64,000 nucleotides of DNA from Acidobacteriota bacterium (GTDB lineage Bacteria; Acidobacteriota; Terriglobia; Versatilivoradales; Versatilivoraceae). Positions 46,216-48,899 of the stretch are shown one piece after another. Every line of letters starts with the position of its first letter. Position 1 is the stretch's first letter. A program made the position numbers and the translations under genes. The notes below the pieces were generated by a model. The model did not search any database. It was not told the origin of the DNA and saw nothing but the letters and a program-made list of their open reading frames with translations. The stretch is taken from the NCBI GenBank assembly GCA_022826755.1, contig JAJDUG010000072.1, forward strand, positions 1 to 64,000, read 5' to 3'.

Positions 46216-47003
46216 CCTTCCAGATCGGCCGGCTTCTTTCCCCGATGGATGATATCGGCCAGGGCGCGGGTGGTGCGGGCCGGGTCGGAACTCTGCCACA
46301 CGTTGCGCCCCAGAGCCACGCCGGCGGCTCCGCAATCCATGGCCTCCCCGACCATCTCCAGCAGGTCCCGGGTGGTCCCCTTCCTGGGGCCGCCGGCAAC
46401 CACTACGGGTACCGGACAGTACGCCACCAGTTTCTCGAAAGTCCGGGGGTCGCCCGTATAGGAGGTCTTGACGATGTCGGCGCCCAGCTCGGCCCCGGCG
46501 CGGGCGGCCAGCAACTCGGCCTCGGCGCCCCGCTGCTGCAGCAGTTCCTCGGTCGGATACATCATGGCCAGCAGGGGCAGGCTCCAGCGCTGGCATTCCG
46601 CGGCCACCTGGCGGAAGTTGTCGAGCATGTGCCGCTCGTGGGGCGAGCCCACCATGACCTGAACCGAGATGGCGTCGGCCGCCTGTTTCAGGGCGTACTC
46701 GACGCTGCTGATCAGGGTGAGGTCGTTTTCGCCGGTGATGATGTTGGACAGGTTGAGAATCGAGCCGCAGCGGTTCCCGTATTCGGGGTAAAGGTTCCCG
46801 GCCATGCCGGCATTGAAGATGACGGCGTCGGCCCCGCCCGTGACGACTCGCCGCACCGTTTCACGGGGGTCCTGGATTCCTGCCACGGGGCCCAGGATGA
46901 CGCCATGGTCCAGGGGAATCATCACCGTTTTGCCGGTACCGGGATTGACAATGCGATCGTAGCGGACCTTCTTGCCGACGTCGATGGTTCGTTCCTTGCT
47001 CAT
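46212..47003 (-). CDS. Class I (DhnA-type) aldolase, LsrF/FbaB-like
   Basis: The 263-residue product is a TIM-barrel class I aldolase of the DhnA family: VMIPLDHGVILGPVAGI near the N-terminus, the Schiff-base Lys in ADIVKTSYTGDP (about residues 175-186), and VVVAGGPRKGTT near the C-terminus. Family members act on fructose-1,6-bisphosphate, phospho-AI-2 or in aromatic amino acid synthesis. It overlaps the upstream kinase gene by ATGA (47000-47003), so the two probably form a kinase-aldolase pathway. Confidence 0.83.
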   Translation of the reverse strand: MSKERTIDVGKKVRYDRIVNPGTGKTVMIPLDHGVILGPVAGIQDPRETVRRVVTGGADAVIFNAGMAGNLYPEYGNRCGSILNLSNIITGENDLTLISSVEYALKQAADAISVQVMVGSPHERHMLDNFRQVAAECQRWSLPLLAMMYPTEELLQQRGAEAELLAARAGAELGADIVKTSYTGDPRTFEKLVAYCPVPVVVAGGPRKGTTRDLLEMVGEAMDCGAAGVALGRNVWQSSDPARTTRALADIIHRGKKPADLEG

Positions 47004-47947
47004 GGGTGGCCCCCTTCCGGCCCATCCGTCTTAAAGTAGCGTGAATTCCGCTCCCGGAGAAATCGAAGCGCTTGTTGCCGATCGGGAATGCCGGTTCGCC
47101 CCCCAAGGCGGGTGCACTTGATGGCGGCCACCGCCGAGGCGAACTCAATCCGTTTCATCAGCTCCCACCCCTGCAACATCCCGTAGATAAAGGCGCCGTG
47201 GAAGACATCTCCCGCCCCGGTGGTATCCACCACCTCCACCGGAAAAGCGGGAAAGTCGAACCTCTGCCCGTCGGCCTGTCCGCGGCAGCCCTGCTCCCCC
47301 AGGGTGACGATCACCACCGAAGGACCGTAGCCGAGCAGCCTGTCGATGGCTTCGTCCACGTCTTCGCTATTGGCAAAGGAGGAGACAAAGGCCAGCGAGG
47401 CAATCAGGATGTCGGTCCGCAGCAGCAGTTCGGAGATGTCGCCTTCCAGTGCCAGCACATCGGCATCCAGCACTACCGGCACCCCTGCCCGCCGGGCCCG
47501 GCCCGCGGCGGCCAGCGCGGCCGCCCGGTGAACGCCGTCCAGATGCAGGACCCTGGCTTCTTCGATCAAGCCCGGCGGCAACTGCGAGGGCTGCAATTCG
47601 TTGAAGGTGGGCACGCAGGCCAGGATGCTGCGCTGCCCGGTGGCTCGATCCACCAGCACCACCGAGGCCTGGGAGAGGGCGCCGGGCTCCACCAGCAGGT
47701 TCCGGGTGTCGACCCCATATTGTTCCAACTCCCGGCGAATAGAGGCGCCGAAAGCGTCGTCACCGACCTTGCCGGCGCAGGCTGCCGAGCATCCCAATCG
47801 CGCCAGGGTGACCAGGGCGGTGGCCACCTCGCCGCCCCCCTGCTGCCGGGTCTCCAGCATGCGGATCTCCTCGTCCGGCCCCGGCATGTGCGGCACCACG
47901 CCCAGCAGGTCAAAGCAGCAACAGCCCAGCCCCACCACGTCAACCAT
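47000..47947 (-). CDS. PfkB-family carbohydrate kinase
   Basis: The 315-residue kinase starts at 47947 (ATG). It has the PfkB signatures: GLGCCCFDLLGV near the N-terminus, the GG-containing QQGGGEVATALVTLARLG (residues about 36-53), and the C-terminal DTTGAGDVFHGAFIYGML with the catalytic Asp of GAGD. The substrate is not readable. Its stop overlaps the aldolase start. Just upstream lies the inverted-repeat unit at 47961-48262, so the promoter must be inside or beyond it. Confidence 0.85.
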   Translation of the reverse strand: MVDVVGLGCCCFDLLGVVPHMPGPDEEIRMLETRQQGGGEVATALVTLARLGCSAACAGKVGDDAFGASIRRELEQYGVDTRNLLVEPGALSQASVVLVDRATGQRSILACVPTFNELQPSQLPPGLIEEARVLHLDGVHRAAALAAAGRARRAGVPVVLDADVLALEGDISELLLRTDILIASLAFVSSFANSEDVDEAIDRLLGYGPSVVIVTLGEQGCRGQADGQRFDFPAFPVEVVDTTGAGDVFHGAFIYGMLQGWELMKRIEFASAVAAIKCTRLGGRTGIPDRQQALRFLRERNSRYFKTDGPEGGHP

Positions 47948-47960
47948 CACGCCTCGCGCG

Positions 47961-48262
47961 GGGAAGTTTGAAGTTAGAAGTTTGAAGGAGGAAGGGGGAA
48001 AGAGGAAGGCGGAAGCCGACTTCGTCAGCAAGTACAGCATCGCTTGCAAGGAAGCCCGCGGAACGCATTACCGGCTCCGCCTTCTGGCAGCTTCCGAAAT
48101 CCTTCCGCGGTGTAGTTTGGCTGAACTGGAGATCGAATGTGACGAATGGATCGCCATTTTGACCAGCACCATCAAGAAAATAAGGAACAGACAGCAATGA
48201 CTCCAACCTTCTCACGTTGCCCTTCCCACTTCAAACTTCCTCCTTCTAACTTCACACTTCCC
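47961..48262. mobile_element. 302-bp inverted-repeat unit holding a four-helix-bundle protein fragment
   Basis: The ends are inverted copies: 47961-47980 gggaagtttgaagttagaag, and 48243-48262 its complement with one mismatch. Additional purine-rich copies of the motif lie just inside (48221-48242 and 47981-47997). The unit fills the gap between the PfkB start and the stop of the VapC-like gene. Inside on the plus strand is the end of a four-helix-bundle gene. I infer a small mobile or mobilised unit; no transposase is present. Confidence 0.5.
48009..48200 (+). pseudogene. Four-helix-bundle (23S rRNA intervening-sequence type) protein, C-terminal fragment
   Basis: On the plus strand the frame ending at 48200 reads DFVSKYSIACKEARGTHYRL then RLLAASEIL, SLAELEIECDEWIAILTSTI and KK. 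This matches the C-terminal helices of four-helix-bundle proteins of the S23/IVS type (the family usually has WLRLL and ELIAILTSI in these places). The N-terminal half is absent and no start codon precedes the segment; purine-rich repeat DNA lies there instead. It is a remnant. Confidence 0.6.
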
Positions 48263-48642
48263 TACGCGCCCATCGTGCGAATCCCATACCGGGAAATACG
48301 AATGTCCCGGGTGACGAGTATCAGCCCCTCCACCTGGGCTTGAGCGATGAGCATACGGTCGAACGGGTCTCCGTGATGCGACGGAAGCGCACCCGCCCGC
48401 TCTGCGTGAAGAAACGTGAGATGCAGAGGGATGAAGTCCTGGTCCGTGACCGCCGCTTCCAGATTGTCTGGAGCCTTCAGCCTACCCAGCGCCCGCTTGA
48501 CGGCAATCTCCCAGACGCTGACCGAACTGACAAAGACCTCGTTCTGTTCACTCTCAATGGATTGAAAAGCGTCCCTGTGAAGTTTTTCGGGGTCGGTCAA
48601 CCACCATAGCACGGTGTGAGTATCCAGCAGTAAACGCGCCAC
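48262..48642 (-). CDS. VapC-type PIN-domain toxin
   Basis: The 126-residue RNase has the PIN acidic residues: Asp7 (LLLDTHTVLWW), Glu45 (SVWEIAVKR), Asp92 or Asp95 (HGDPFDRMLIAQA) and Asp113 (LVTRDIRI). Its GTG start at 48642 overlaps by one base the stop of the antitoxin gene. PIN toxins of this PHD-coupled group cleave RNA and are blocked by the antitoxin. The stop is at the edge of the inverted-repeat unit. Confidence 0.85.
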   Translation of the reverse strand: MARLLLDTHTVLWWLTDPEKLHRDAFQSIESEQNEVFVSSVSVWEIAVKRALGRLKAPDNLEAAVTDQDFIPLHLTFLHAERAGALPSHHGDPFDRMLIAQAQVEGLILVTRDIRISRYGIRTMGA

Positions 48643-48899
48643 TACTCGTCTTCATCCGGAAAGATTTTGGAGTTGTAAAACGAATCGATAACTTCCTGGG
48701 GAGTCTCGTCAAAATCCGGAGCAATCCAGATTTGTCCCTTCAGCGCCCCGGGTTTGCGCTTGATCTTCCGCTCTCGATAGGGCACCAGGCGCAGGTAGGG
48801 CTCACCGGCCTTGGCGATCACGATCTGCTCGCCCTCCCAGGCCAACTTGCCCAGGCGCGAGAGTTGCGACTTGGCTTCGTGCATGTTGACTTTCATCAT
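48642..48899 (-). CDS. Phd/YefM-type antitoxin
   Basis: The 85-residue protein has the antitoxin N-terminus MKVNMHEAKSQLSRLGKLA and EIVIAKAGEPYLRLVPY-like sequence (GEQIVIAKAGEPYLRLV), which bind operator DNA. The C-terminal tail (after residue 48) wraps the toxin. Its stop overlaps the VapC-type start. The pair should be autoregulated. Confidence 0.83.
   Translation of the reverse strand: MMKVNMHEAKSQLSRLGKLAWEGEQIVIAKAGEPYLRLVPYRERKIKRKPGALKGQIWIAPDFDETPQEVIDSFYNSKIFPDEDE

Follow-up and report, generated by a model that had tools for sequence, protein, structure and literature searches.

The window, the whole 64,000-nucleotide stretch of DNA analysed here, carries at 47961–48262 (plus strand, in gene sense) a unit of 302 bp with complementary ends, lying between two genes of the minus strand. 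On one side stands a PfkB-type sugar kinase, a host gene (47000–47947, likely ATG at 47947) named from the preliminary description and its sequence, and on the other a VapC-type PIN-domain gene (48262–48642; PF01850, 67.3 bits), adjoined by a Phd/YefM-type antitoxin gene (48642–48899, minus strand; PF02604, 22.9 bits, under its cut-off). The preliminary description had reported near-identical complementary ends of 20 bp, and indeed 47961–47980 (gggaagtttgaagttagaag) and the reverse complement of 48243–48262 (gggaagtgtgaagttagaag) agree at 19 of 20 positions. Its exact fit between the kinase gene and the vapC stop held on the vapC side, where the last base of the element (48262) is the G of the TAG codon, and not on the pfkB side, where 13 bp separate the start of the element from the likely ATG, upstream of the gene. 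The pfkB frame is open across the 5' arm (47948–48049), so that automated gene calls may run the protein on into it; at L002 and L003, two other copies in the same genome, flanking proteins end in array-encoded peptides such as KFEVRSLK.

Both arms are tandem arrays of 7-bp units. The 5' arm (47963–48015, plus strand; L004 1476–1528) is of the GAAGTTT type and reads GAAGTTT GAAGTTA GAAGTTT GAAGGAG GAAGGGG and onwards, and the 3' arm (48222–48260, minus strand; L004 1735–1773) carries the same kind of unit inverted. Complementarity between the arms reaches 46 nt at 78%; their best match scored 21.0, against a maximum of 13.5 among 300 dinucleotide shuffles, a score reached in one of 389 shifted windows elsewhere, and the RNA fold of the unit gave a z of -4.43. 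Complementary ends thus form a stem around an ORF, as in insertions of the IVS type; the window copy is not inside a 23S rRNA gene and sits between pfkB and vapC. A known RNA family was ruled out, the sole match of the Rfam search being a meaningless 17.3 bits against a gathering threshold of 50.

The unit encloses an S23/IVP four-helix-bundle gene reduced to its C-terminal half (47988–48164, plus strand), its frame closed by a TGA at 48198–48200. The fragment scored 37.1 bits against TIGR02436 (cut-off 24), which places it in the family, and matched PF05635 over profile positions 47–105 at 26.8 bits, below the Pfam cut-off of 33.8, as befits a half-length fragment; these matches bear out the earlier assignment to the C-terminal half of such a protein.

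Copies, inversions and decay in the home genus

The home genome (G000) has four PF05635 copies, all four between inverted heptad arrays, with units of GAAG plus three bases at L002, L003 and the window copy and GGAGAGT/GAAGAGT at L001. Two further inverted-array sites (C20, C22) contain short stretches that resemble, by eye, the gene's 3' end. The genome contains 171 copies of GAAGTTTGAAG, most of them in arrays without a gene. At L035 (748–1044), a 98-aa ORF of unknown kind lies between inverted GAAGTTT arrays, with apparent S23 gene-end pieces on both sides.

Within the home genus, the window site measures 544 bp in G005, 302 bp in G000 and 9 bp in G001. The G005 element has one in-frame TGA, and remnants of 133, 182 and 217 bp in G002, G003 and G004 lie in the orientation opposite to that of G000 and G005. 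The 9 bp of G001 (AACTTTTCC) between the two genes may be an empty or a lost site and, being too short and diverged to tell which, were rejected as a clean empty site. Judged by this sequence comparison, the window copy is a relic, an internally deleted version (lacking the N-terminal half) of the fuller element in the sister species G005, and not an active traveller.

At the L060 site, the gene is oriented oppositely in G003 and G002, and G004 has the arms alone; at the hemE/tRNA site, L112 is inverted relative to L002, L070 and L113. Altogether, both orientations of one site were seen at three home-genus sites, between species and not within one culture. The related genomes G011 and G009 have, at a shared site, S23 genes that differ from each other, as do their heptads. 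In the home genus, the element flips in place and decays to arms, and since decayed and arms-only copies are found at these sites, solo arrays are at least partly relics. A phase-variable switch, kept since its flips alter the expression of neighbours and mobile only incidentally, would suit the inversions at three sites; recombination between long inverted arms already predicts inversion, however, and deletion decay at the same sites and the diversity of contexts make such a switch very unlikely.

Inverted heptad arrays flank S23 genes across phyla

We scored the flanks of family genes by a strict two-arm rule, which asks for an identity score of at least 9 at lag 7, 8 or 9 in both flanks and a match of at least 12 between the upstream flank and the reverse complement of the downstream flank; the thresholds were chosen after the loci had been seen, and controls were scored with identical thresholds. 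For the home genome and its relatives, 72 loci were taken from 124 PF05635 matches (52, mostly fragments and lower-scoring matches, were excluded, as was L101, a duplicate of L069), and L068 was dropped for its short flank, leaving 71. The rule held at 53 of these 71, not all independent, since orthologous copies (e.g. L002, L070, L112, L113) were counted apart. Among the loci of named genomes, found by protein pattern alone and comprising the best 80 of 588 relatives, 54 passed and 26 failed, and the rule also held at 23 of 35 viral contigs and 11 of 14 plasmid loci. By comparison, it held at none of 26 PIN genes in the same genomes (none of 30 with four added) and at 3 of 389 shifted windows on the same contigs. 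Loci passing the rule include members of Acidobacteriota, Bacillota, Bacteroidota, Pseudomonadota, Planctomycetota, Patescibacteria, Chloroflexota, Verrucomicrobiota and Kiritimatiellota, to which the plasmid loci add Cyanobacteriota and Gemmatimonadota.

A scan of periods 4–13 gave signals in both flanks at period 7 in 47, 22, 50 and 11 loci (home genome with relatives, viral, named and plasmid sets, respectively), at period 8 in 5, 1, 7 and 1 loci, and in single cases at 9 and 13; shifted windows gave four at 7 and one at 13. Across phyla, S23 genes sit between inverted arrays of 7-bp, rarely 8-bp, units, and this architecture is their hallmark. At L198 (Faecalibacter rhinopitheci), an exception to the inverted rule, period-7 arrays flank the S23 gene in direct orientation.

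The arms are not obligatory, since armless loci exist: of the 48 proteins on the tree that failed the strict rule, 11 lacked flank periodicity as well as a good inverted match, with L068, not measurable, as a twelfth. Parsimony required 39 changes for 48 arm-less among 164 tree rows (a count on the observed tree), which speaks for scatter and against a single clade; arm-less genes thus appear scattered over the tree.

Gene and arms entered an empty site together

The one clean case of movement comes from plasmids, where an element of about 420 bp is inserted at one site in Trichormus variabilis plasmid C (L296) and in a Scytonema plasmid (L300), and the same site is empty in Nostoc linckia, Fremyella, Aulosira and Nostoc carneum (L301–L304), about 97.5–98% identical. 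GTAAT, a putative 5-bp target duplication, borders the insert on either side and is single in the empty site; one insertion is represented. In this case the element moved, gene and arms arriving as one insert that four relatives lack. Nostoc C052 has a half-deleted copy at the same plasmid site (L305), and Brasilonema (L306 1081–1288) has a hairpin of about 90 bp that lacks an ORF but carries the heptads of the S23 element, and may be a MITE-like form.

The preliminary description had suggested that a small inverted-repeat unit carries the gene from place to place, and had proposed looking for target duplications and empty sites. The suggestion is upheld by filled and empty sites about 98% identical, as for a transposable element with terminal inverted repeats, by copies of one element at several loci of a single genome and by arms at most complete genes. 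Of the two marks proposed, empty sites were found in the four plasmids; beyond the GTAAT of that one insertion, no clean target duplication appeared at five other loci with empty counterparts (85–93% identical), and none was seen across the six other loci compared with relatives. No transposase, integrase or reverse transcriptase lies inside the element; the gene between the arms, where an own transposase would be looked for, is the S23 gene, and elements of about 420–550 bp leave no room for a second.

Further elements occupy the gap between nrdB and nrdA, that between cas10 and cmr3 and, in two instances with different units, that between cas6 and cas4; relatives without them are less identical in sequence and have no clean duplication. 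The S23 elements in cas6–cas4 (type I-D) and cas10–cmr3 (type III-B) CRISPR operons of cyanobacterial plasmids (L291 2001–2315, L297 2001–2315, L310 1201–1506) point in the operon direction, and the empty cas6–cas4 spacer of Pseudanabaena ABRG5-3 (L307 1040–1090) holds a short heptad array (AATTACG).

Arm units match within an element and differ between lineages

At loci chosen by periodicity only, the match between an element's own arms averaged 21.4, compared with 8.8 after arms were swapped between elements (n = 57), and 28.5 compared with 9.4 in a second set chosen likewise (n = 53); the true mean was reached by none of 10,000 permuted pairings in either set. Chance or composition as the source of the arms was rejected by this test together with the PIN-gene, shifted-window and shuffle controls. 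The 141 elements that passed the strict rule have period 7 in 127 cases, 8 in 13 and 9 in one; units of 8 bp were noted at L063, L067, L126, L166, L207 and L208, and one of 9 bp at L087. Elements with different units occur within one genome (G026), so that the unit belongs to the element and not to the host. The 127 period-7 elements carry 99 distinct units, and the repeat letters aagtttgaagttagaag, earlier put forward as the signature flanking complete genes, do not serve as such: this type of sequence (aagtttgaag) was rejected as a universal mark of the gene. Tied to one sequence, the proposed link fails by the refuting condition set out for it, since complete genes elsewhere have other heptads and the 171 copies of GAAGTTTGAAG are mostly geneless; tied to the architecture, it stands.

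Read inward, the 5' arm is G-rich, with G exceeding C in 119 of 141 elements, and AG is commoner than CT in 107, the reverse holding in 22. Among the 184 period-7 arms that can be phased on AG, whose AG positions score high by selection, position 3 is the least variable after AG and position 5 the most. The lengths of period-7 arms peak at 30–32 nt (62 of 248 arms), i.e. five cores, and those of period-8 arms at 34–35; arrays range from 2 to 22 units, with a broad tail beyond the five-unit peak. Similar proteins tend to have similar arms, chiefly where identity exceeds 60%; the correlation (r) is 0.24 overall and drops to 0.11 under 55% identity. It thus falls short of proving co-evolution, and coupling of unit and protein beyond descent is weak.

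Were the arms ordinary simple repeats born of slippage, with the S23 gene merely lying in repeat-rich intergenic DNA, common geneless arrays and a variable number of units would be expected, and both are seen. This explanation is nevertheless scarcely credible, since the arms are inverted and share element-specific units that the swap test contradicts as slippage products, their period is nearly fixed at 7, they are absent at PIN genes and rare in shifted windows, and gene and arms arrived jointly in an insertion that four relatives lack.

A one-gene element with a predicted repeat-binding ring

We read the 302-bp unit, with a probability of roughly 0.7, as a decayed small mobile element which, when intact, measures about 420–550 bp and carries an S23/IVP gene between inverted, lineage-specific 7-bp arrays, with a predicted ring that binds the arrays and a predicted enzyme acting in trans. 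The preliminary description was right in substance, and the finding is much larger than it stated: the unit is a relic of a widespread one-gene, heptad-armed element. On this reading, the unit is particular to each element lineage, its core usually containing AG in the 5' arm read inward; the S23 protein would form a ring on its own array, each subunit taking one heptad over about five units, and in that state would mark the RNA or single-stranded DNA of its own element, to be mobilised by an enzyme acting in trans. Pairing of the arms might also loop the insert out of the transcript in hairpin form, as 23S rRNA IVSs do. Five chains are present in each of two solved relatives, 2gsc (XCC0516 of X. 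campestris) and 2rld, and from these and the arm-length peak at about five units we infer a ring with one repeat per subunit, that is, a putative pentamer binding to about five repeats. TRAP, an RNA-binding ring protein, is the model for such an arrangement.

Four family proteins found no match among the PADLOC defence-system profiles, nor did the one family protein searched against a phage collection. Three of four tested proteins were matched by the profile of Avd, the reverse transcriptase accessory protein of diversity-generating retroelements (PMC10053308), at 1e-9 to 1e-10. This homology raises the possibility of RNA-mediated movement, in which the transcript would fold by its arms, S23 would bind it as Avd serves its reverse transcriptase, and a host or resident reverse transcriptase would copy it back. 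The accessible text on the Coxiella burnetii IVS points the same way, reporting that RNase III cleaves in a 28-bp stem and that the IVS RNA is excised in vitro (PMC4990558), as does the strand polarity of the arms (AG over CT). The polarity equally fits single-stranded DNA, however, and the element is without a reverse transcriptase; we regard the RNA route as a real contender, somewhat doubtful on balance.

In Xanthomonas, 26 of 29 S23 loci passed the strict test, with units GGGAATC, GGGATTC or GGGACCC; having arms nearly identical in many genomes, they are probably largely one orthologous site. GGGAATCGGGAATC occurs 22–280 times (median 96.5) in 30 Xanthomonas genomes with a full-scoring S23 gene and 41, 0, 25, 12 and 15 times in five with no or a weak one, counts uncorrected for kinship. 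One or two S23 genes beside so many arrays, and the arms-only derivatives L251 and L306, would be expected if arrays scattered as in REP/RAYT systems were spread by the host or by an IS200/IS605-type enzyme acting on hairpins, with the array-binding S23 protein as a helper only. The elements read carry no Y1 transposase, however, and the five gene-poor Xanthomonas genomes may be one branch; such a system is unlikely.

A broader extension of the mobile-element reading, to which we give slightly less than even odds, is that a large share of the unexplained over-represented tandem heptad arrays in bacteria may derive, as arms with or without their gene, from a single ancient class of minimal mobile elements, whose only gene product, a ring-forming S23 protein, would read its own heptad with one subunit to each repeat, whose copies landed in rRNA would be the 23S IVSs, and whose units would change in both arms by co-evolution of protein and repeat. 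The mobile-element reading as such brings together puzzles treated separately so far, namely over-represented heptamer repeats in bacteria, S23 proteins without known function and the unexplained spread of rRNA intervening sequences, and sets out a one-gene element whose repeats follow a definite code, with a period of 7, about five units, an AG core and two matching arms.

Comparison with known systems

A search of the open literature, with subscription papers mostly outside it, returned no paper linking S23 genes to heptad arrays. REP/RAYT elements and MITEs consist of dispersed short inverted repeats, and one copy of a gene is set between repeats of that kind. The present elements share dispersed inverted repeats and a repeat-flanked gene, and differ in their lineage-specific heptad arrays and in having an S23 gene between the repeats where REP/RAYT has its Y1 tyrosine transposase. 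With Avd they share the profile match; unlike diversity-generating retroelements, no reverse transcriptase, template or variable repeat was found with the gene in the window, where the scanned neighbours were PIN, antitoxin and PD-(D/E)XK genes.

Heptad arrays themselves have been described before. TAACTGA arrays have been reported (PMC4679880, in its accessible part), and Geobacter metallireducens has tandem heptanucleotide and octanucleotide arrays (PMC2700814), similar in their four or five tandem units and mostly paired occurrence; they are presumed there to be regulator sites, and S23 goes unmentioned in the accessible text. Rehm et al. 2015 describe GGGAATC (Xanthomonas) and GGGGAYT (Nostoc) heptads, with 70 and 75 inverted convergent pairs in two genomes, as quadruplex-forming repeats generally unassociated with mobile elements (PMC4692102); the same Xanthomonas heptads flank the S23 gene here, and the accessible portion of that paper names neither S23 nor four-helix proteins.

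The closest likeness is to the 23S rRNA IVSs with an S23 ORF, such as that of Coxiella burnetii, which in the accessible text (PMC4990558) share the protein family, a length of about 430 nt, complementary ends around one ORF and a sporadic distribution, with tandem heptads going unmentioned in the stems. At one plasmid locus of Azospirillum lipoferum (L312), the flanks match records of many unrelated genera and probably belong to a 23S rRNA gene; the insert has arms of the same heptad kind (AGAGGAC/GGAGGAC) and replaces, with no target duplication, a 17-nt hairpin tip kept in a relative 99% identical. Known IVSs lie in rRNA genes, whereas the heptad elements described here occupy intergenic DNA and operons across phyla.
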